The translations under genes were made by a program, and so were the position numbers. A model generated the notes under the pieces. The model saw only the letters and a list, made by a program, of their open reading frames with translations. It was not told the origin of the DNA and did not search any database. A stretch of DNA of 64,000 nucleotides from Corynebacterium pseudotuberculosis. Lineage in GTDB: Bacteria; Actinomycetota; Actinomycetes; Mycobacteriales; Mycobacteriaceae. Shown piece after piece: positions 36,788 through 50,196 of this stretch (position 1 is the stretch's first letter; every line of letters begins with the position of its first letter). The stretch spans positions 248,001 through 312,000 of the forward strand of contig NZ_CP021251.1 in assembly GCF_002155265.1 (NCBI RefSeq), written 5' to 3'.

Positions 36788-36842
36788 TTAAAGAAACCGA
36801 TCAAATGATCCAGGTAGACGGTGTGAAAGCGGTGGTTTGTCC

Positions 36843-38207
36843 GTGAGTGTGCTGGTTGTTGGGATGTCTCACCGGTCGGCTCCAGTGACGCTCCTGGAAC
36901 GGCTGAGCATGAATGACGAGGTGCGTTCCCAGACGGCTACGGATCTTATTGCTCGTCCCTCGTTGACTGAGGCGATGATCATATCTACCTGTAATCGCCT
37001 AGAGGTCTATGCGATGACATCTAGTTTTCATACGGGTGTCAATGACGTGGTGGAAGTGCTGCATGCCGTGAGTGGCGTAGATATGGATACCCTTCGGGGG
37101 TATCTCTACGTGCGTTATGCGGATGCTGCTGCGGAGCACATGATGGTGGTGGCTTCGGGCATGGACTCGATGGTTACCGGAGAGCAACAGATCATCGGAC
37201 AGGTGCGTACGGCGTATCAGCAGGCTATCGAGTCGGGGACCGTGGGCCCGGCCCTGCATGGTTTGGTGCAGGCGTCCTTGCACACGGGGAAGCGCGTGCA
37301 CACTGAGACAGACATAGATGATGCCGGCGCTTCCATGGTTTCCTTTGCCCTTGATCAAGCAATGTCCGGGGCTGGTCTGAGTGACCTACGCGGTAAAAAA
37401 GCGCTTGTCCTTGGCGCAGGAGCTATGGCTTCTTTGGCCGCTACCCATCTGGGTAGGCTAGGTATAGAGGGGATTATCTTTTCTAACCGGACCCGCAATA
37501 GGGCAGAACGGCTGGCTGAGCATTCCCGTGAGGCCGGGGTGCCCGCGGAAGTCGTCGATTTTGCATCACGAGGAAATGCCCTGAGTGGGGTGCATATTGC
37601 GATCTCTGCGACAGGCGCCCATACCTACACGATTTCAGCTCAAGACGTGCCGGAAAAACACTTAGGGCTGATATTTGTTGATCTTTCCATGCCTCGAGAT
37701 ATCAACGATGACGTTGCGGAAATCGCGGGAGTGCAGCTGGTCAATATAGAGAAGCTGCATGAAGCCAAGGCGGAGGGGAAAGACGCTGATGAGGCTGCCC
37801 ACAAGATTGTTGCGGAAGAGCTCAGCGCATACACCTCCGCGCAGCGGGTTCGAGATGTGGCGCCAGCGGTATCGGCGTTACGTCGACACGCTTCTGGCTT
37901 GATAACCACCGAACTGGAACGTTTGAAAACTCGCACACCGAGCATGGGCGAAGAAGATTTTGAAGAAGTGCAGCGCACGATACGCCGGGTTGTGGATAAA
38001 CTCCTGCATCAGCCGACGGTTCGGGTAAAAGAACTCGCGGCAAGCTCTGGGGCGGTTTCCTATGAGACGGCTCTGCAAGATCTTTTCGGCCTCCCAGTAG
38101 AAGCAAAGAGCGTAAAGCTTGGCGTGCGTGACTTACCCGATGCTGAGGTCGTAGCCCTGGGGGTTAGCGATGCCAACAAGATTATCCGAGCCATCAAGGA
38201 AGACTGA
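36843..38207 (+). CDS. hemA: Glutamyl-tRNA reductase
   Basis: This protein of about 454 residues reduces glutamyl-tRNA to glutamate-1-semialdehyde with NADPH, the first step of C5-pathway heme synthesis. The catalytic Cys lies in [28 protein letters not shown], the NADPH-binding [15 protein letters not shown] and [15 protein letters not shown] follow, with a C-terminal dimerisation helix. The start is placed at GTG 36843 ([12 protein letters not shown]) by family comparison. hemC starts two bases after its stop, so they are coupled. Confidence 0.96.
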
Positions 38208-38209
38208 CC

Positions 38210-39100
38210 ATGACTTTTACTATCGGTACGCGCGGCAGCCTTTTAGCTACCACCCAATCGGGGCATGTGCGAGACGCCCTAATCTCTCAGGGGTATTCGG
38301 CGGAATTGAGTATTGTCACCACACCCGGTGACGTAAATATGGCCCCTGTGGAACGCATCGGAGTGGGCGTTTTTACTCAAGCACTGCGTGACGTGCTTGT
38401 TAAAGGCGGCTGCGATATCGCTGTACATTCTTTTAAGGACTTGCCTACGCAGCGCGACCCACGTTTTCACTTAATAGTTCCGGAGCGTGCCGACGCCCGC
38501 GATTGCCTTGTAGCCCGAGACGGCCTGACATTGGCGGAGCTGCCTCAGGGGGCGCGTATTGGTACGGGAGCGCCTCGAAGAATCTCACAGATCAAAGCTT
38601 TGCGCCCTGATGTGGAATGCGTACCGTTGCGTGGCAACATCGATACCCGGATGGGCAAGGTTTTTTCCGGAGAACTTGATGCGGTGGTTCTCGCTTATGC
38701 GGGTCTTTCTCGTGTGGGCCGTGGCGACGAGGCCACAGAGGTGTTTAATCCGGAGCGCTTCCTTCCCGCGCCTGCGCAAGGAGCTCTAGCTATCGAATGC
38801 CGCGTTGATGACGCTGCTGCTGTTGCGGCGATCAATGCAATCCGAAACGCAGAGGATGAGACCTGCGCGCTCGCTGAACGTGTAGTGCTCAACCGGTTAG
38901 AAGCGGGATGCACGGCACCCGTGGCCGCCCATTCTGTCATCATCGAGCAAGAGCTCCAGGTCACGGGAGCCGTTATCTCTCTTGACGGGAGCAAGGTCTT
39001 TCGCGCCACGATGACGGGGGGACTGTCTGAGGCTGTGGCTATTGGAGAAAAAGTTGCGGCAAAACTTATTCAGGATGGTGCCGCTGAGTTGCTGTCCTGA
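38210..39100 (+). CDS. hemC: Porphobilinogen deaminase (hydroxymethylbilane synthase)
   Basis: This 296-residue enzyme joins four porphobilinogens into hydroxymethylbilane. The N-terminal [44 protein letters not shown] and the dipyrromethane-cofactor Cys in [13 protein letters not shown] are present. It follows hemA after two bases. A 253-base gap without any evident terminator separates it from the hemD fusion. Confidence 0.96.
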
Positions 39101-39353
39101 GACACTTGTTCCCTCCCATTTTGGGCAATAACCGAGTCAAGTAGCCTACGGCAGTATTCTGCTGGTTTTTATTAAACGCCTTGCTCAATTATCCTCAAAG
39201 GTCGTTGTATTACCACACGCTTGACGTCGCTCGATCACGAGGCCCCTCTTAGTGATCTATAGCGGCGTGAATTTGTGTTTAGCAGTTCCTCTTATTTTCG
39301 CCCATTCCACAACTCGGAGCTTTTATGGCTCCTAGAAATACGGATACTTGTTC

Positions 39354-41042
39354 ATGAGTTCGACTCCGCAACCCACCCCGGTAACCCCTGCACCGGAGGG
39401 AAAAGTGATCTTTGTAGGAGCAGGACCAGGAAACCCTGATCTGCTCACCGTTCGCGCCCGCGAAGTTCTCAGCCATACCGCTTTTGCCGTAGTAGATGCA
39501 GAAGTTCTACCGGGGGTTCGCTCAGTGGTTGCACGTGAACTCGATGTGCCGATGGATAAAGTTCAGGCGGCTGAGGAAGAATACGAGCGGCTGTGCGCGG
39601 AAGCAAAAGAAGCTGGTGCGCGCCGTAAACCGCAGCGCCCGGACGCCCCGACTGCCGCTGAGATTACAGAAGTAGACGACGACGTTCCTGTAGTAGAGGT
39701 AGTGGAAAAGCTTAAGGAGCTTTTGTCCAGCGGGGAAGACGTTATTCGCCTGGTGCAGGGAAACCCCTTGTCATGTGACCGAACCCTGGAAGAAATTTCT
39801 GCGGTCAAGCAGGCCGGACTGGAGTTCCACGTGGTTCCCGGCATGTCCTTGCCGGCGACCGTTCCTGCTTTTGCGGGTATCGCTCTGGGCTCTTCTTATA
39901 CAGAAACCGATGTAACTGGGGAAGACGTAGATTGGGAACAGCTTGCTGCAGCACCTCAGCCGCTGGTTTTGCAGGCAACTAAAGAGGATCTGCCTACAAT
40001 AGCCGCAGAGTTAAAATCTCGTGGGATAGAGGCATCGACCCCGGTGACGGTGACAGCTCGCGGGACAACACGCTTGCAAAGAAGTTTTGATATTAGTTTG
40101 GGCGCCCTGCACAAGTTGGACGGGGACCTCGCCGGAACCCTCGTGGTTACTTTAGGCAAAGCAGCGGATGAACGTACCAAGTATTCTTGGTGGGAGAACC
40201 GTTCGCTCTTTGGTTGGAGAGTGCTGGTCCCCCGTGCAAAAGAACAAGCCGGATCAATGAGTGCATTGTTGGCTGCTCAGGGGGCAATCCCGCAAGAAGT
40301 TCCCACAATCTCTGTGGAGCCGCCACGTAATCCTGCGCAAATGGAGAAGGCCGTTAAAGGGATCGTGGAAGGCCGCTACCAATGGGTGATTTTTACCAGC
40401 GTCAACGCAGTGAAATCCGTGAGAGAGAAAATCGGTTCCTTCGGACTCGATGCTCGTGCCTTTGCTGGCGTGCGCATTGGAGCGGTAGGAACAAAAACTG
40501 CTAAGGCCATCCGTGAGCTTGGAATCACGCCGGAGTTGCTCCCTCCGAGAAATCGGCAAAACGCTGCAGGTTTAGTGTCAGTGTTCCCGGAGTATGTGGA
40601 AGACCTTGATCCAGTCGGACGGGTCCTCTTGCCCCGGGCGGATATTGCAACGGACGTCCTGGTGGAAGGCTTAGAAGGCCTTGGCTGGGAGGTCGACGAT
40701 GTGGTGGCGTATCGCACGGTACGGGCCGCCCCGCCGAGTGCAGAAGTGCGCGACATGATTAAAAGTGGCGGTTTTGACGCTGTGTGCTTTACCTCTGCAT
40801 CCACGGTAAAAAATCTGGTGGGCATTGCTGGGAAACCACATCAGCGCACAATCATTGCATGCATTGGTCCGATGGCGGCGGCAGCGGCAAAAGAATTAGG
40901 CCTGCGGGTGGACGTGATCCCCGAGGTAGCGGATGTTCCTCACTTGATTAATGGTCTTGCTACCCACGTGGCACAACTGCGCGCAGCTGGCCAGCTGCCG
41001 CCTCCTAGGAAGAAGCGGCGCGCCCGAAAAAATCGCGAGTAA
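39354..41042 (+). CDS. hemD: Uroporphyrinogen-III methyltransferase / synthase fusion
   Basis: This protein of about 562 residues has two domains. The N-terminal part (about 15-270) resembles uroporphyrinogen methyltransferase ([39 protein letters not shown]). The C-terminal part (about 285-540) is uroporphyrinogen-III synthase ([51 protein letters not shown]). In place of the usual glycine-rich GDPFVFGRG motif the first domain reads [14 protein letters not shown], so methyltransferase activity may be reduced. The C-terminus ends in a basic tail ([14 protein letters not shown]). The start is ATG 39354. The fusion is common in actinobacteria. Confidence 0.92.
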
Positions 41043-41088: not shown

Positions 41089-42096
41089 ATGAGCAACGCA
41101 GATCTCCACCTTATTCGTCGCCCACGCAGGCTCCGAAGTACGCCAGTTATGCGCGAATTAGTGGCAGAGACGACGCTTCGTCCCGCCGACCTGATTCTTC
41201 CTATGTTTGTCGCAGACGGGATAGCTGAGCCACGCGAAATTTCTTCTATGCCCGGCGTATACCAGCACACTATTCCCTCCTTAATCGAGGCCGTTAGAGA
41301 AGCTATTTCCGTAGGGATTAAGTGCATTGACCTCTTCGGAGTGCCTCTCGACGCCGACAAGGACGCACAGGGTTCTCAATCTTGGGCACCAGACGGAATC
41401 CTCAACCGTGGCATTAGAGCGTTACGCCAAGAGTTTGGCAATGATGTGATCATCATGGCAGACACGTGTCTTGATGAGTTCACAGATCATGGGCACTGCG
41501 GCGTACTCGACACTGATCGCTTCGGCGAGGCAGTTGTGGATAACGATGCCACTATCCCGTTGTATCAAAAGATGGCGGTGGCGCAAGCGGAGGCAGGCGC
41601 GCACATGGTAAGCCCCTCCGGCATGATGGATGGGCAGATTTTGGCAATCCGCGACGCCCTCGATGCTCATGGCTTCCAAGACGTAGCCATTATGGCGTAT
41701 TCCGCTAAGTATGCTTCGGCCTTCTACGGCCCATTCCGTGACGCAGTGGGTTCTTCTTTGGACGGCGACCGTAGAACATACCAGCAGGATCCGGCTAATT
41801 GTAGGGAATCACTGATGGAAGTCGACCTAGATATTGAGGAGGGCGCGGACTTTGTTATGGTCAAACCAGCCATGCCTTACCTCGATGTCCTAGCAGAGGT
41901 AGCCTCAACATCGTCCGTGCCTGTCGCCGCGTATCAGGTATCAGGCGAATATGCCATGTTGCATGCGGCTGCCCGTAATAACTGGCTCGATCTGGAACGT
42001 GTGATGATGGAATCGTTGATTTCTATCAAACGCGCTGGGGCAGACCAGATTCTTACTTACTTTGCCGTCGACGCGGCGAAAAAACTACAGCACTAG
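41089..42096 (+). CDS. hemB: Delta-aminolevulinic acid dehydratase (porphobilinogen synthase)
   Basis: This 335-residue enzyme condenses two aminolevulinates to porphobilinogen. The start at ATG 41089 gives [40 protein letters not shown], the [15 protein letters not shown] region and [18 protein letters not shown] with the Schiff-base Lys are present, as is [12 protein letters not shown] with the second Lys. The Cys in [14 protein letters not shown] are at metal-site positions, though only some zinc ligands of the zinc-type enzymes remain. It is followed closely by a small membrane protein. Confidence 0.95.
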
Positions 42097-42103
42097 GGAA
42101 ACA

Positions 42104-42685
42104 ATGACCAACCACCAACAGCGACTCGAGCGATCACCATCTCAACAGACCACTCCCAACGCTAAGCGGGAGCGTCCCGACGCGATTCGCTGGGCGGTGC
42201 GCGCGTGGATTTTTGCCATCTGTGTGGAGGTAGTCCACCAGATCATCAATATCATTGTTGGTTTTGCCAACAAGCCAGAGTTGATCTCTAGGCTCAAAGA
42301 CTCGATGAAGGATGAGAATCTTTCTCCAGAGATCATGAACGTGGCAGCAAGCTTGAGTATTGTTCTGGCAGGACTTTTCGCCTTTATCATGCTGGGAATT
42401 ATTGCGTGGTTGGCTGCGCTTCTTTATAAAAGCAACAAATCCGCGACCCTAGCGCGCCGCATTCTTACATATTTTTCTATTTATTTTGGCGTGCGGTTGG
42501 TGACAGTCTTTCTGCTGACGCCAAGCTCGCCGTCTGTCCCCGTCGCAGTGTATGCCGTTGACGGTTGCATCCAGATCGGTATGGGCGTTGCTGCCATCGT
42601 CGCGCTCATTTTTAAGATGCGGCCCGAAAGCCTGATTTGGACTGGCGAGTGGGAGACATCGAGGGGGAAGAATGGGCGCGCCTAG
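42104..42685 (+). CDS. Membrane protein between hemB and the P-type ATPase homologue
   Basis: This 193-residue protein has a hydrophilic N-terminal 30 residues and four hydrophobic helices (about 32-52, 82-105, 126-145, 152-172). AGGGA precedes the ATG 42104. It starts seven bases after hemB and overlaps the next gene by 14 bases, so the three are translated together. I do not recognise a characterised family. Its tight coupling with the ATPase-like protein suggests a shared membrane role. Confidence 0.75.
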   Translation: MTNHQQRLERSPSQQTTPNAKRERPDAIRWAVRAWIFAICVEVVHQIINIIVGFANKPELISRLKDSMKDENLSPEIMNVAASLSIVLAGLFAFIMLGIIAWLAALLYKSNKSATLARRILTYFSIYFGVRLVTVFLLTPSSPSVPVAVYAVDGCIQIGMGVAAIVALIFKMRPESLIWTGEWETSRGKNGRA

Positions 42686-45308
42686 CGGTAGTCGAGACTC
42701 TCAAGAGGGCGGTGTTCCTGCACGTCCTCTGGGAACTCAGGAAGGGCTTGCCGACGCCATTGAAAAGGCGAAGCGGGCTGCTGCACAGGCTGGCATTAAC
42801 ACAGGAGCTTTCCACGCAATCGATCCGGAAGAAGTCGCTGCTGCTGCTATCCACGCAGGGAAGACCTCTTTTGCGTTTGAGTTAAAGGGACTGACCAGCG
42901 CTTCCTCAGTCGCGGAAGTGGAGGAGGCCCTAGGAGAGTTGGAAGGGGTGGAAGCAAAAATTGTTTACCCTTCCTCGATGGCCTGGGTGAGCGCAAGTCG
43001 CACTATTGACCCGATGATGTTTGTGGATGTATTCCAGAGATTCGGTATTAGCGCAACACTTACTGACTCGTCGTTGCGGCGTCGGCTTGCCTGGTCCGAC
43101 GTTGAGGAAGGGCGGTATAAGCGTTCGCGACGCCGCGATCGTAGGGTCAGCCGCTTTGGCTCGCGCGTGGATGAGGAGGAACGTCGCTTTGAGCTAGCTC
43201 GCAGGGCAGGCTTCTTGGAACGCCGCGAGGATGTCTCGCGTAAAGAGCCCAGCACTGCTGTTCTCTTCACCGCCCGCTCGCTGATGACCAAAACGCGTCT
43301 ATTTACCAGCGCGCTTTTTACAATTCCTGTCGTAGCCATCAGCTACTCCAGAGACCTCCAGTTTGATGGCTGGCAGTGGGTTTTGGCTGTGCTTTCTATC
43401 CCCGTCGTGTTTTATGGCGCGTGGCCTTTTCACAGGGCGACGCTGGGCGGAGCTCGCCGTGGTATGTCGGCGTTGGATAGTGCCTCGTCGGTAGCAATCC
43501 TGTTGGCCTGGCTGTGGTCGTTGAGCATGGTGTTATTTACCGCTGTGGGCGACCCAGGGTATCGGGCGCGGCCAAAGTGGGTAGCGATCGACCCTACGAT
43601 TTTTGAGTCTGGCGCGCTCTTTTTCGACGTAGCCTGCGGAATGACTCTGATCCTTCTTGCAGGAAAACTCGCTGCCCGAAGAGCTCGCAGCAGTCTCCAA
43701 GATGATCTTCTTAAATACAAGCCCAATCCCGCTTCTACGGTCACGGTGGTGTCTAAAAAACGGAAGTCGGGAGCTGTAGGAAAAGAAGATAAGGCGATCC
43801 AAAAACTGAACGTGGGGGATGACGTCATCGTTCCTGCTGGGGAGCTTGTTCCTGTCGACGGCATAGTGGTCGGCGGCGGAGGAACCCTGGACGGTACGGC
43901 TTTGGGCATCGGCTCATTTGACGTAAAAGTAAACGATCGGGTCTACGCAGGGTGTATCAACGGCAGTAAAAACCTGAAGGTGCGTGTATTGCAGACTGGG
44001 CATAGGACCTGGTTGGCTGCCATAAATCGGTGGGTGGTAGACGCTAATGTGCACCAGAATCGTTCGGATGCCATAGCCACCAAAGCAGCCTCGATGCTTG
44101 TTCCAGTGTCCTTTGTTATTGCGGCTACGGATTTTGCACTGTGGGCCTTGATCACCAATAACCTGAACCAGGCGTTTGCTACGGGTCTTGCAGTGCTAGG
44201 GTGCGTGGCCCCGGCAGCGCTGGCAACCTCTGCATCGCTGGCTATGCGGCAGGGCATCGAAGGCGCTGCCCGCCGTGGAACGCTCATTAAATCGGGCGAA
44301 ACTCTGCGCAACGTTGACGAGGTAGATACGGTTATTTTCAATCGCGTGGGCGCTATTTCACGCCCTGAGATGTCTGTAGAAACAGTTACTGCGGACCGTG
44401 GGGAAAATCCTGATCTGGTGCTTCGGGTTGCTGGCGCATTAGCCATGGAAAGTGGGCATCCGGTATCCCGCGCTCTGGTGCGCGCGGCACGGGAAGCTCG
44501 AGATGCTTCTACCGATGATTCAATTCCTGGTTGGATTGAAGTCAGCCACTCGGAGGTGGACGAGGAAGGAAGCTTCCGCGGACACGTGGAGTTGCCCGTA
44601 GTCAATAGCGATGGCGAGGAAGAATTGCGGAGCGTGGAAGCCGTATTATGGCGTCCGCGTAACCTTTCTGACCTGCATGGTCGTTTGGCCGCCGCCGCGG
44701 TTTCTGGCAGTAGTCCGTTGGTTGTGCGTTGGAAAAACAAAGATCGTGGTGTGATCACGCTGTACAACGGCGCCAAAGACGATGCCGTGGATGCCGTGGA
44801 TGCGCTTGAGGCGATGGGGTTGGAAACGATGATGCTTAGCCGGGATACGTACCCGGTGGCGCGTCGATACGGCGATATGGTCGGAGTATCCCATGTGTTG
44901 GCTGGCGTGCAGCCTGGGCGGAAACCTCAGACAGTTCGATCTGTGCGCTCTCATGGGGCGAATATCGCTATGGTCGGCGATGAATCGGTGGAGGAATGTT
45001 ATCGGGTTGCCAACGTTGGCATTATGATTAGCGCGATGTCGGGGCCCCAGGGGGCGCTTGCGCTTGAGCACCCCGCAGCAGACGTGGTCATGCTCAAACC
45101 AGATGTGGCGCCTATCCCTCGCTTGTTCCATTTTGCACGTCGCCTGAATCGTAGGATTCGGGGAAACCTGATCTTTGCGTGGACGTATAATCTGCTGGCT
45201 ATTGTGGCGGCGGTAGCGGGAGTACTGCATCCTATGATCGCTCCTCTTCTGATGTTAGGGTCGAGCGTGATCATCGAGGTTCGCTCTCATTGGCTGCGTA
45301 GCATGTAG
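42672..45308 (+). CDS. Catalytically degenerate P1B-type ATPase homologue in the heme operon
   Basis: This 878-residue protein has the complete length and order of a P1B metal ATPase: an N-terminal ferredoxin-like region (about 64-132, no CxxC), paired membrane helices (about 205-330), actuator (380-440), membrane helices (470-520), nucleotide/phosphorylation region (535-800) and closing helices (835-870). But the DKTGT motif reads FNRVGA, with Asn557 where the phosphorylated Asp must be; the membrane CPC reads GCVAP (510-514); the actuator TGES reads LGIGS (411-415); and GDGxND reads GDESVE (769-774). His596-Pro597 is kept. It cannot pump by the normal cycle. A GAGGGGGAAG ribosome site and intact frame argue for a working protein, perhaps a binding, scaffold or chaperone role. 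Confidence 0.88.
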   Translation: MGAPSGSRDSQEGGVPARPLGTQEGLADAIEKAKRAAAQAGINTGAFHAIDPEEVAAAAIHAGKTSFAFELKGLTSASSVAEVEEALGELEGVEAKIVYPSSMAWVSASRTIDPMMFVDVFQRFGISATLTDSSLRRRLAWSDVEEGRYKRSRRRDRRVSRFGSRVDEEERRFELARRAGFLERREDVSRKEPSTAVLFTARSLMTKTRLFTSALFTIPVVAISYSRDLQFDGWQWVLAVLSIPVVFYGAWPFHRATLGGARRGMSALDSASSVAILLAWLWSLSMVLFTAVGDPGYRARPKWVAIDPTIFESGALFFDVACGMTLILLAGKLAARRARSSLQDDLLKYKPNPASTVTVVSKKRKSGAVGKEDKAIQKLNVGDDVIVPAGELVPVDGIVVGGGGTLDGTALGIGSFDVKVNDRVYAGCINGSKNLKVRVLQTGHRTWLAAINRWVVDANVHQNRSDAIATKAASMLVPVSFVIAATDFALWALITNNLNQAFATGLAVLGCVAPAALATSASLAMRQGIEGAARRGTLIKSGETLRNVDEVDTVIFNRVGAISRPEMSVETVTADRGENPDLVLRVAGALAMESGHPVSRALVRAAREARDASTDDSIPGWIEVSHSEVDEEGSFRGHVELPVVNSDGEEELRSVEAVLWRPRNLSDLHGRLAAAAVSGSSPLVVRWKNKDRGVITLYNGAKDDAVDAVDALEAMGLETMMLSRDTYPVARRYGDMVGVSHVLAGVQPGRKPQTVRSVRSHGANIAMVGDESVEECYRVANVGIMISAMSGPQGALALEHPAADVVMLKPDVAPIPRLFHFARRLNRRIRGNLIFAWTYNLLAIVAAVAGVLHPMIAPLLMLGSSVIIEVRSHWLRSM

Positions 45309-45349
45309 GTAGCCGAAGGCTACTGCCGACGCTGGATAATGGAACGATA

Positions 45350-45381
45350 GAACCCCATCAATCAAATGGTTGATGGGGTTC
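45350..45381 (+). terminator. Stem-loop between the P-type ATPase homologue and hemE
   Basis: GAACCCCATCAA (45350-45361) pairs perfectly with TTGATGGGGTTC (45370-45381), loop eight bases. No U-run follows, so it may only weakly terminate or may process the transcript. Confidence 0.6.
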
Positions 45382-45441
45382 TCGCCTAAAATAGGGTCGG
45401 CTTGCTTTCTTTTGGCCGTTTTGTTGTGCATTATTAGTGGC

Positions 45442-46488
45442 ATGTCACAACCTTTCAACGCGCCAATTCTTGACGCTATTCAGGGAAAAACTCCCACGCG
45501 TCGTCCCGTATGGTTTATGCGCCAAGCCGGCCGCTCGCTACCTGAATATCGCAAGGTGCGGGAGGGTATTGGCATGCTGGACAGCTGTTTTATGCCAGAA
45601 CTTCTTGCGGAAATTACTCTGCAGCCGGTGCGGCGACATGACGTAGACGCTGCGATCCTATTCTCAGACATTGTGGTGCCGCTTAAAGCCGCCGGGGTAA
45701 AAGTGGAAATCATTCCTGGCCGTGGTCCTGTTATGGACCGTGCGATCCAAAGTCGTGCTGACGTGGATGCCTTGCCGATCCTTGAAGAGGACGTCCTTCA
45801 GGTAGCCCGAGGCATCGAGATTATCCGAGATGAGCTGACGGAACAGCAAACCCTGATTGGTTTTGCAGGCGCACCCTTTACACTGGCGAGCTACCTTGTC
45901 GAGGGCGGCCCCAGTAAGAACCATGAAAAGACTAAGTCCATGATGCATGGGGACCCAGAAACCTGGCATGCCCTTATGCAGCGTCTGGTTCCTACCATCG
46001 TGCGTTTCCTACGCACCCAGATCGATGCAGGCGTTCAGGCCATGCAGTTTTTCGACTCCTGGGCGGGATTCCTCACGGAGCGCGATTACCGTAATCACGT
46101 GCTTCCGTATTCCACTCAGATTTTGGAAGAGGTAGCGGATGTGCCGCGCATCCACTTCGGGGTAAGCACTGGTGAACTGCTCGCTACGATGAGCGAAGCT
46201 GGCTCTGAGGTAATGGGTGTGGATTGGCGTGTTCCCCTGGACGCTGCTGCCGAGCGCATTCACGCGCGTTCCGGGGCCAAGGTGCTGCAAGGAAACCTCG
46301 ATCCGGCGTTGCTTTTTGCGGGAGACGACGTACTAAAAGCTGAGATTGAGCGTATCTGCATGGAAGCCGATCGCGCCATCGCCGCAGGGCATGCCACAGG
46401 GCATATATTTAATCTCGGACACGGAGTATTGCCGCACACGGATCCTGAAGCAATCACTCGTGCGGTGGAACTCATTCATCGTTTTTAA
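45442..46488 (+). CDS. hemE: Uroporphyrinogen decarboxylase
   Basis: This 348-residue enzyme decarboxylates uroporphyrinogen III to coproporphyrinogen III. The N-terminal signature RPVWFMRQAGRSLPEYR, AILFSDIVVPL with its conserved Asp, GFAGAPFTLASYLVEGG and LQGNLDPALL are present. FNLGHGVLPHTDPEAITRAVELIH closes the protein. The start is ATG 45442 (MSQPFNAPILD). hemY follows after 67 bases on the same strand. Confidence 0.96.
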   Translation: MSQPFNAPILDAIQGKTPTRRPVWFMRQAGRSLPEYRKVREGIGMLDSCFMPELLAEITLQPVRRHDVDAAILFSDIVVPLKAAGVKVEIIPGRGPVMDRAIQSRADVDALPILEEDVLQVARGIEIIRDELTEQQTLIGFAGAPFTLASYLVEGGPSKNHEKTKSMMHGDPETWHALMQRLVPTIVRFLRTQIDAGVQAMQFFDSWAGFLTERDYRNHVLPYSTQILEEVADVPRIHFGVSTGELLATMSEAGSEVMGVDWRVPLDAAAERIHARSGAKVLQGNLDPALLFAGDDVLKAEIERICMEADRAIAAGHATGHIFNLGHGVLPHTDPEAITRAVELIHRF

Positions 46489-46555: not shown

Positions 46556-47941
46556 GTGCGCATTGCCATCATCGGTGCCGGTTTAGCGGGGCTAACGGCT
46601 GCTTATGAGATTCATAAACTCGCCCCTCACGCGGACGTAGAGGTGTTCGAGGCGACAGATCGAATTGGCGGCAAACTGTTCACGGTTCCGTTTGCCTCCG
46701 GTCCTACTGATATGGGCGCAGAAGCATATTTAGTTTTTCGGGAAGATACCACTGAATTTTTCAAAGAGCTAGGACTCGAGGAGAGTTTGCGTTCTCCCTC
46801 GGGGTTGCCTTCTTTGCTATACCAGGGAGGCAGCCTTCATAGCATGCCTTCCAACACGATCATGGGTATCCCCGGCACAAGTGAGGACCTAGGTAACCTG
46901 GTCAGCGAGGAAACTCGCAAACGCATTGACTCGGAAATAAACGCGGAGTCTATTGAGTGGCCTCAAGAAATAAGCCTGGGTGCACTCCTGCGGGAACGCT
47001 TGGGTGATGATGTTGTAGATCATGTGGTGTCGACGCTGCAAGGTGGCGTTTATTCTTCTACCTCGGATGATCTCAGCGTGCGCGCTACGGTACCGCAGCT
47101 AGCGCGGGCCTTAGACAAGCTCAAAGAAGAGGGAAAGCCCGTAACCATCACGGGTGCTGTTCAACGGCTTTTGTCTGAGCGAGAGGAACGTAACAAAAAA
47201 CGGGGATATACCCCGAGCGTTTTTGCGTCTTTCGCAGGCGGTTATGCGGAGATGTATGAGGCTCTTGCTGAGCGTAGCGAGGCAAAGATCCACATCGATG
47301 CCTTTATTACCGCAGTGGATAAAAAGCCTGAGGGTTTTGTGCTCAAGGGTGCTGAAGGGGTCTTTGATAAAGTCCTGTTGACGGTGCCGGCGCCCACGGC
47401 GGCTCTGCTGCTTAAGAACCTTGTTCCGGAGGCTGCACAACAGCTTAAAACTATCAAGCTAGCGAGCTCTGCCGTGGTAGGAATGAAGTTTGATAATTCC
47501 GCGGGACTCCCCGATAACTCTGGGATTCTTGTTGCCACTAATGCCCAAGATGTGAGGGCAAAAGCATTCACCTTCTCCTCTAAGAAGTGGCCTCACCTGG
47601 GGGAACGTGGCGGTGCTTTAGTGCGGGCCTCTTTCGGTAGGTTTGGTGAGGACGCTATCGCGCGCGCAGACGAAGACGAGCTTGTCGACGCAGCCCTCGA
47701 CGACCTACAGACCATTACGGGATTCGACGGACGTGCTGCTGGATTATCGGAGATCTTTGTCCAGCGATGGTTCGGCGGGTTGCCAGTGTATGGTCCTGGG
47801 CACTTGGACACGGTTGCAGCAATCAAGAAAGCACTGGCTCAGGTCGAGGGCATCGATGCTACTGGTGCGTGGGCCGATGGCGTCGGCGTTCCCGCAGTGA
47901 TCGATGCTGCGAAAGCAGCGGCCAAACGAGCACTTGCCTAA
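46556..47941 (+). CDS. hemY: Coproporphyrinogen III oxidase / protoporphyrinogen oxidase (HemY type)
   Basis: This 461-residue FAD enzyme has the N-terminal dinucleotide fold IAIIGAGLAGLTAAYEIH, a second FAD element in FEATDRIGGKL and the C-terminal WADGVGVPAVIDAAK region. In Gram-positive bacteria this family oxidises coproporphyrinogen III to coproporphyrin III in the coproporphyrin-dependent heme route. AAGGAAGG lies before the GTG start at 46556. It is followed by a convergent dehydrogenase gene. Confidence 0.92.
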   Translation: MRIAIIGAGLAGLTAAYEIHKLAPHADVEVFEATDRIGGKLFTVPFASGPTDMGAEAYLVFREDTTEFFKELGLEESLRSPSGLPSLLYQGGSLHSMPSNTIMGIPGTSEDLGNLVSEETRKRIDSEINAESIEWPQEISLGALLRERLGDDVVDHVVSTLQGGVYSSTSDDLSVRATVPQLARALDKLKEEGKPVTITGAVQRLLSEREERNKKRGYTPSVFASFAGGYAEMYEALAERSEAKIHIDAFITAVDKKPEGFVLKGAEGVFDKVLLTVPAPTAALLLKNLVPEAAQQLKTIKLASSAVVGMKFDNSAGLPDNSGILVATNAQDVRAKAFTFSSKKWPHLGERGGALVRASFGRFGEDAIARADEDELVDAALDDLQTITGFDGRAAGLSEIFVQRWFGGLPVYGPGHLDTVAAIKKALAQVEGIDATGAWADGVGVPAVIDAAKAAAKRALA

Positions 47942-48784: not shown

Positions 48785-48879
48785 GGCGCCATGATAGAGA
48801 AGGCGTGAAGGCTTTGCAGTGTGTAGAGAAAAGAGTGGCTCTAAAGTTTGTGAGCTAGTTACGTAATAGGATGGTACGC

Positions 48880-50196
48880 ATGACTGTTATCCCGACTTCC
48901 TCTAACGTTCAGCGTTCCCGTGAGCTTTTCGATCAAGCATGCAAAGTAACCCCAGGTGGTGTGAACTCACCGGTGCGCGCTTTTGGATCCGTGGGCGGTC
49001 AGGCGCGTTTTATCGCGTCGGCGCAGGGCTCCAAGCTTTATGACGTAGACGGCAATGAATACGTGGACCTAGTGTGCTCTTGGGGGCCGATGCTTTTGGG
49101 GCACGCCCACCCTGAAATCGTTGAAGCAGTGCAGAAGGCAGCGGAGAAGGGGCTATCTTTTGGCGCTCCTACTGAGGCTGAAGTGCGCATAGCTAACATG
49201 ATCGTTGAGCGTACCTCTGTGGAGGAGGTTCGCATGGTCAACTCGGGCACAGAGGCGACCATGTCTGCAGTTCGGCTGGCTCGGGGGTTCACTGGCCGCC
49301 CCAAGATTATTAAATTCGACGGGTGCTATCACGGACACGTTGATGCGCTGCTGGCATCCGCAGGATCCGGGGTAGCTACGTTCGCATTGCCGGATTCTCC
49401 AGGCGTGACGGGTGCTTCCGCCGCGGATACCATCGTGGTGCCGTATAACGACATCGAGGCGGTCGCGCAGGCTTTTGCAGAGAATGATGGGCAAATCGCC
49501 TGCATCATTGCAGAGGCCGCGGCAGGAAACATGGGCACGGTTGCCCCACGCAATGATTTTAATGCCAAGCTCAAAGAGTTGGCACATGCTCATGGCGCAT
49601 TGCTCATCTTGGATGAGGTGATGACGGGCTTCCGTACCTCCTACAACGGTTGGTTTGGCGTAGACCATGTGGCCGGAGACCTGACCACCTTTGGCAAGGT
49701 CATCTCGGGTGGTCTCCCAGCCGCGGCTTTTGGTGGACGTGCGGACATTATGAAGTACCTGGCCCCTGAGGGGCCGGTCTATCAGGCGGGGACTCTCTCA
49801 GGTAATCCGGTGGCTGTGGCCGCCGGCATGAAATCTCTTGAGCTTGCTACCCCTGAGGTCTATGACATAGTGCGTGCTAATGCTGATCGCCTGGCCGAGT
49901 TGCTGAGCAGCGCGCTAGAGCGTGAAGGGGTAGCTCACCATATTCAGAGGGCCGCTACGATGCTATCCATCCGCTTTGCAGAGGGCGAAGGCCACAACTT
50001 TGATCAGATGAAGTCGGCTGAGACATTCCGATTTTCTCCTTTCTTCCACGCTCTCATGGATAATGGCATCTATGCGCCGGCGAGTGTGTTTGAGACCTGG
50101 TTTGTGTCTGCGGCGCTTAGCGACGAAGATTTCGAGAAGATCGAGAACGCCCTACGCCCAGCGGCTCAGGCTGCAGCTGCCGCAAACAAGTACTGA
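48880..50196 (+). CDS. hemL: Glutamate-1-semialdehyde 2,1-aminomutase
   Basis: This 438-residue PLP enzyme turns glutamate-1-semialdehyde into 5-aminolevulinate. [50 protein letters not shown] and the PLP Lys in [18 protein letters not shown] are all typical. ATG 48880 is favoured by AGGA eight bases ahead; the frame extends three codons more. It is followed within nine bases by the histidine phosphatase gene and then the cytochrome c maturation genes, which ties heme synthesis to its use. Confidence 0.96.

Follow-up and report, generated by a model that had tools for sequence, protein, structure and literature searches.

A catalytically degenerate P1B-type ATPase homologue conserved in the heme gene cluster of Corynebacterium

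Results

A full-length P-type ATPase homologue between hemB and hemE

We examined 64,000 nucleotides of Corynebacterium pseudotuberculosis DNA (contig NZ_CP021251.1, positions 248,001 to 312,000; hereafter the window, within which coordinates are given), where the gene at 42672-45308, on the + strand like all other features of the window described here, encodes a homologue of the P1B-type ATPases that we call the pseudo-ATPase. It lies between the heme biosynthesis genes hemB and hemE. The original prediction, made from the letters of the window alone, took it for an intact 878-codon P1B homologue, and this description stands. The 878-codon frame is unbroken, and its 878-residue product matches the Pfam models E1-E2_ATPase (PF00122, the A domain; 8.3e-24) and HAD (PF00702, the P domain; 2.4e-8), both above cut-off. 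A degenerate HMA-like domain at about residues 65-140, which remains sub-threshold in the hidden Markov model (HMM) search, is accompanied by an Arg-rich linker, membrane helices and the A, P and N domains; most of the eight expected helices (MA, MB and M1 to M6) are visible in the hydropathy profile, the eight not being cleanly separated. The best solved relative is the copper ATPase LpCopA (3rfu; 4.5e-46 over residues 203-860), followed by a cadmium pump (3.8e-36), a zinc pump (5.5e-22) and KdpB (1e-16), and the NCBIfam heavy-metal P-type model TIGR01525 scores 269 against a cut-off of 346. P-type ATPase descent and fold are apparent over the whole length of the protein from the HMM matches to the E1-E2_ATPase and HAD domains, the LpCopA alignment and the tree presented below. 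The closest relatives are found in C. silvaticum (95%), and source databases annotate such proteins as heavy-metal or copper P-type ATPases, or as HAD hydrolases.

Catalytic and metal sites are lost throughout the family

Homologues were collected at two scales. Scoring of 8000 candidate proteins yielded 195 matches, the best 79 of which make up, with the query, a set of 80 family proteins; residues were compared in 79 of them (the partial P0080 was left out) aligned with 41 active relatives. Wider residue counts come from 167 family loci in 166 Corynebacterium genomes (G237 contributes two), to which 19 of the 185 full-match genomes did not contribute.

The phosphorylated Asp, found in 41/41 active relatives, is Asn557 in 80/80 family proteins and at 167/167 loci, which is far beyond chance. 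The DKTG motif has become NRVG (codons 557-560; 44340-44351), with N, R and G at 557, 558 and 560 at every locus, and CPC has become APA (codons 513-515; 44208-44216); none of the 167 loci has C-P-C, and two have a lone Cys at 513. In the LpCopA alignment, D426 stands opposite N557, C382/C384 opposite A513/A515 and M148 opposite L268; Y688/N689 stand opposite Y839/N840 and are thus retained. The TGE(S/P) motif of the A domain is GIGS in the query and is missing at the aligned position from all 80 proteins. SRDTYP, with SRD for TGD, replaces the TGDN region (codons 723-728; 44838-44855), its R724, D725 and Y727 being present at 167/167 loci. GDGxND is GDESVE in the query and occurs in 0/79 complete family proteins, most of which keep the GD itself; one protein, P0003, reads GDDSIND, one residue longer than the motif.

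Positions fixed in the active relatives and gone in the family (79 versus 41 sequences) include the phosphorylated Asp (N557 in 79/79) and the Lys that follows it (R558), the two cysteines of CPC, TGE, and, within GDGxND, the G, N and D. The TGD Gly (R724), the cysteines of the HMA domain and the entry Met (L268) have gone as well, as have four N-domain residues: E591, G632, G634 and G660, the last of which is Trp in 75/79. Common to the family and the active pumps are S594, G769-D770 and a series of residues (P514, D396-G397, H596-P597, D725, K751, Y839-N840 and M861) shared in particular with the Cu(+) P1B-1 ATPases LpCopA, AfCopA and ATP7B, which also have the same domain order, membrane layout and A/P/N fold. 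Unlike these pumps, the pseudo-ATPase has Asn for the catalytic Asp, Arg for the next Lys and Trp at an N-domain Gly, and is devoid of CPC, TGE, GDGxND and the HMA CxxC. The claim that every catalytic motif had been lost is therefore correct for the Asp, CPC, TGES and GDGxND motifs as such, but goes too far for single residues, since D770 (first Asp of GDGxND), D725 (the TGD Asp) and K751 (the Lys of the P domain) survive.

Orthologues with an intact DKTGT, which had been named as the observation that would speak against an inactive family, amount to 0/80 proteins and 0/167 loci. As further candidates for members with a working site, 12 genome matches, chosen as the weakest or as odd, were searched again: seven proved to be split into pieces (one of them over several frames), five were ordinary, and all 12 carried Asn557. 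Deamidation of Asn557 to Asp was considered but dismissed, since TGE, CPC and GDGxND are missing too.

Most ATP contacts are gone

Among the N-domain ATP residues (E, SxHP, GxGxxG and GN/GR), SxHP alone is largely kept, with H596 at 156 of the 167 loci. Glu591 and Gly660 are found at none of them, Gly632 at 11 and Gly634 at two; position 660, the Gly of the VGN/VGR motif in pumps, is Trp at 163, and D770 persists at 148. The N-domain Glu has an ATP-contact role in P1B pumps, and ATP binding can survive a D-to-N change on its own. The family positions 632, 634 and 660 correspond to ATP7B G1099, G1101 and G1149 by motif position, not by direct alignment. In the relevant portions of an ATP7B study (PMC3203118), two loop glycines and the Gly-Asn pair are close to ATP, and the H1069Q change leaves the ATP affinity of the N domain unchanged (76.5 versus 74.3 uM). 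The retained His-Pro, correctly noted in the original prediction and present in the query as H596-P597, would therefore, by analogy with ATP7B, be weak evidence for ATP binding. Since the N-domain ATP residues of P1B pumps are mostly lost, and one of them has turned into Trp, an ATP-driven cycle appears very unlikely; the same loss speaks against an ATP-locked pump.

New invariant residues and purifying selection

Besides the pocket residues already cited, C322, W454, L268 and P514 are present at all 167 loci, K751 and Y839 at 166, N840 and M861 at 162, and S865 at 143. The position of Cys322, in M2, is Ala in 37/41 active relatives; three residues away, position 319 is always acidic (149 Asp and 18 Glu), as is position 869 in M6 at 163 loci. 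The new invariant residues NRxG, RDxY, Cys322 and Trp454 show that both the pocket and the membrane part are still under selection. Per-domain conservation, calculated from the 79 family proteins and 41 active relatives, was too even to single out one contact surface. Residues 319-322 (43626-43637) presumably lie on the former metal exit side of the membrane domain, and Cys322 is a candidate metal or heme ligand.

The ratio of non-synonymous to synonymous substitution rates (dN/dS) of the pseudo-ATPase is 0.033 and 0.035 relative to two sibling species (L063, and C. silvaticum, L001). With the same siblings, the values are 0.034 and 0.038 for hemE, 0.040 and 0.046 for hemB, and 0.131 and 0.126 for TM1, which encodes a small membrane protein immediately upstream. 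The tightest segments are N, P, M3-M4 and M5-M6, with dN/dS of 0.00-0.02. Distant comparisons (L065, L066) were not used, as synonymous divergence was saturated. Relaxed selection and frequent truncation, which had been proposed as signs of a decaying gene, were thus not observed, a single contig-end fragment having been found among the fetched loci that had no full match. In pseudoenzymes such as pseudokinases (PMC7586955), catalytic residues are lost, the fold is kept and selection is maintained; the pseudo-ATPase presents the same combination, and its catalytic loss, conserved across orthologues and accompanied by purifying selection, would qualify it as a pseudoenzyme.

The surrounding heme cluster

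Upstream of the pseudo-ATPase lie hemA (glutamyl-tRNA reductase; 36837-38207) and hemC (hydroxymethylbilane synthase; 38210-39100), both with NCBIfam matches, hemD (uroporphyrinogen-III synthase with a methyltransferase-like part; 39348-41042), whose matches are below curated cut-offs, hemB (porphobilinogen synthase; 41089-42096; NF006762, above cut-off) and TM1 (42104-42685; 193 residues from its ATG), the frame of which overlaps the start of the pseudo-ATPase by 14 nucleotides. Downstream are hemE (uroporphyrinogen decarboxylase; 45442-46488; TIGR01464, above cut-off), then hemY (protoporphyrinogen oxidase; 46556-47941) and hemL (glutamate-1-semialdehyde aminomutase; 48871-50196), again with NCBIfam matches. 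The genes further downstream we take to be gpm, the thioredoxin-like resA and ccdA, the last two having no NCBIfam match.

With variations, the order hemA-hemC-hemD-hemB-TM1-TM2-pseudo-ATPase-hemE-hemY-hemL recurs in the genus; TM2, a second small membrane protein, is missing from the window (42096-42672). Synteny was counted at 59 loci, in which at least one species (C. silvaticum) appears twice, with hemE, hemY, hemL, gpm and CopA as downstream queries; one locus used for gene order (L213, from G065, a full match) is outside the 167-locus set. The first gene recognized downstream is hemE at 42 loci, hemL at 11, hemY at one and an active-type P-type ATPase at one, with none in the flank covered at four, and the nearest gene recognized upstream is TM2 at 30, TM1 at 20 and hemB at four, with none in the flank covered at five. 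At two loci (L205 and L207) the interval between the pseudo-ATPase and hemE holds an active-type P-type ATPase whose start is rich in His; in L205 it is followed by a small protein that begins like a lipoprotein. In L206 the interval contains an ATPase and a membrane protein that together resemble an ABC transporter.

Between the pseudo-ATPase and hemE, a hairpin (45349-45382) of 15 pairs, with a free energy of -28.9 kcal/mol, a z of -6.27 and no T run, may serve as a terminator or as a palindromic site for a regulator. The siblings L001 and L063 have it too, one of its pairs being altered in both arms. A scan of consensus promoters and terminators gave 8 and 16 sites, versus 8.5 and 15.1 in shuffled sequences, and this hairpin was not among the terminators. 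The predicted location inside the heme operon, between hemB and hemE, is accurate as to position. Given the hairpin ahead of hemE, however, the pseudo-ATPase may be the last gene of a hemB-side block and not share one operon with hemE, and this is the placement that we favour.

TM1 and TM2 occupy the same slot as the small membrane proteins that follow hemB in Mycobacteriales, presumably at the position of Rv0513/Rv0514, and these are unrelated to P-type ATPases. TM1-like matches, some of them weak, are present at 37 of the 40 loci from genomes with no full pseudo-ATPase match, often with TM2-like genes; in other genera, weak TM1/TM2 matches were detected in 7/18, and weak TM2 matches after hemB in 6/18. 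TM1 and TM2 are probably older than the pseudo-ATPase in the post-hemB slot. Replacement of TM2 by the pseudo-ATPase was considered and rejected, as many loci carry both.

Distribution in the genus and history of the family

Of 200 matching Corynebacterium genomes, 185 have the pseudo-ATPase family and 15 only an ordinary pump, the two being separated by expectation value (E-value; below 1e-110 versus 1e-61 to 1e-74). With one contig-end fragment added to the 185 full matches, the gene is present in 186 of 242 Corynebacterium genomes; it is absent from 55, and one more is not judgeable, part of the stretch reading N. For the 57 genomes that had no full match, 38 were fetched (40 loci) and 19 were judged by whole-genome search alone. 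All 57 keep hemB and hemE matches, hemE being in two pieces in one of them; at locus L155 (G075) hemE is divided between two frames, one of 186 and one of 192 residues, which may be a sequencing error or a real break. Beyond the contig-end fragment, no recognizable remnant of the pseudo-ATPase was found at the 40 fetched loci (next best E-value 0.02), the rest of these genomes not having been searched for small remnants.

A search of 251 genomes of the same GTDB family, covering 31 genera and including at least 22 Corynebacterium, gave no match of family strength outside Corynebacterium among those listed: scores there reached at most 278.6 bits, versus at least 603 for the family members listed, and the best of these outside matches is an ordinary pump with DKTGT and CPC. 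The genome of C. pseudotuberculosis itself contains, in addition to CopA, a second P-type ATPase with DKTGT (L060, C1:1010591-1014112), whose frame of only 416 residues looks truncated or frame-shifted.

A FastTree tree of 50 rows, in which 19 of the 80 family proteins were included, places the family on one side of a branch supported at 100, so that it is a clade unless the root falls inside it; this branch is about 1.1 changes per column long, printed as 0.57 either side of the root. A quick hemE tree was built with 37 rows where the gene is present, 36 where it is absent (including the genome with the N stretch) and 16 outgroup rows. Presence changes at least six times on it, two of these changes being forced by well-supported branches. 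One absent clade comprises 27 rows (support 100). Two further absent genomes branch as sister to the rest of the sampled Corynebacterium (support 87), so that the gain may lie before or after that split. The simplest history would be one early origin followed by several losses of the whole gene.

Discussion

Judged by alignment, phylogeny and gene order, the pseudo-ATPase represents an old Corynebacterium family whose ancestors were Cu(+)-type P1B ATPases. Its phosphorylation site, the motif for dephosphorylation, CPC and most ATP contacts have been lost, yet it has been kept at full length in the heme gene cluster under strong purifying selection. It probably has a new non-pumping job at the membrane. 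The original prediction of such a function is thus supported as far as a retained non-pumping pseudoenzyme is concerned; the choice that it left between sensor, scaffold and pump regulator is not decided. We give a probability of about 0.4 to a role in heme synthesis as a membrane scaffold or regulatory subunit locked in one conformation. With no E1/E2 cycling, the protein would stay in that conformation, its dead P-domain pocket being held by the new invariant residues Asn557-Arg558 and Arg724 together with Asp725 and Lys751. It might then dock soluble heme enzymes, the co-encoded TM1/TM2, or both at the membrane, where pathway intermediates, or the transfer of heme to respiratory enzymes, could thereby be kept together. 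In favour of this role stand the invariant residues, dN/dS values like those of hemE and hemB, the lost N-domain ATP positions, the synteny and the well-supported family branch.

Several observations weigh against the scaffold. Strict conservation of the P-domain pocket would be expected of a ligand site no less than of a locked structure. The 55 genomes that have no pseudo-ATPase keep hemB and hemE, which implies that the gene is not needed for heme synthesis everywhere. Finally, hemE of C. glutamicum (cg0516) is listed as a target of HrrA, with a peak 17 from a transcription start, and is repressed by it, according to PMC7337898; since hemE is listed there with its own HrrA-controlled start, it need not be expressed together with the hemB block.

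The pocket could instead belong to a ligand sensor: the former phosphorylation site would still bind something anionic, whether phosphate, a nucleotide held in a new pose or a porphyrin precursor rich in carboxylates, and would signal by way of the membrane domain. Fixation of N557, R558, R724, D725 and K751 in a site devoid of catalysis agrees with this, as does the finding that the N and P domains are, with M3-M6, the most constrained parts between siblings; against it, the first Asp of GDGxND is less well kept, and canonical Mg-ATP binding is unlikely given that the glycine loop is mostly gone and Trp660 has come in. We regard such a sensor as unlikely, though worth serious consideration. 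A passive conduit or a metal or heme chaperone, whose remodelled membrane domain would bind or conduct copper, iron or porphyrin independently of ATP, seems to us distinctly unlikely: the M5 YN and M6 MxxSS residues are retained at most loci, and Cys322 near acidic 319 and the acidic 869 are suggestive, but the entry Met has become Leu at every locus and CPC is gone. In AfCopA, the portions of PMC9433437 concerned with these sites report that Cu(+) binding is impaired by CPC mutations especially, and also by YN and MxxSS mutations, and the cysteines that matter most there are those lost here.

Readings closer to an active pump, or to none at all, fare less well. The same genome encodes a CopA with DKTGT and CPC (L059), and L205 and L207 have an active-type ATPase next to the pseudo-ATPase, which would suit regulation of a true copper pump, for example through a dead complex with CopA; yet the gene tracks the heme cluster, the CopA gene of its own genome is far away and we know of no P1B pump that is a heteromer, all of which makes this improbable. 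It is harder still to credit a working transporter with unusual chemistry, for which the complete domain order and the conserved Lys751 and Asp725 could be invoked, when the phosphorylated Asp, TGE, the ND of GDGxND and the N-domain ATP residues have all disappeared together. That the gene is a decaying pseudogene or a sequencing artefact, as its absence from 55 genomes might suggest, can be rejected with near certainty: purifying selection is on a par with that on core heme enzymes, the same residue state is found across 166 genomes, and no recognizable remnants lie between hemB and hemE where the gene is absent and the locus was fetched.

The P-type ATPase superfamily is large and comprises ion and lipid pumps; its functionally uncharacterised (FUPA) families have been surveyed, and the present family may have been mentioned there earlier. 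Among the open-access papers listed by our searches, we found no description of an inactive or pseudo P-type ATPase family, nor of any long-lived catalysis-free one, and the passages found in a review of open questions on these enzymes (PMC10654040) make no mention of such a family. That these genus-wide pseudo-P-type ATPases went from pump to non-transporting membrane component of the heme pathway, the dead site having been reshaped into a fixed contact or ligand site, is an overall view to which we would grant slightly less than an even chance. Present in 186 of the 242 species sampled, in a genus with a workhorse of both laboratory and industry, the family offers a clean test of what the P-type ATPase fold can do without ATP, and it suggests that heme metabolism in Corynebacterium has a membrane component so far overlooked.

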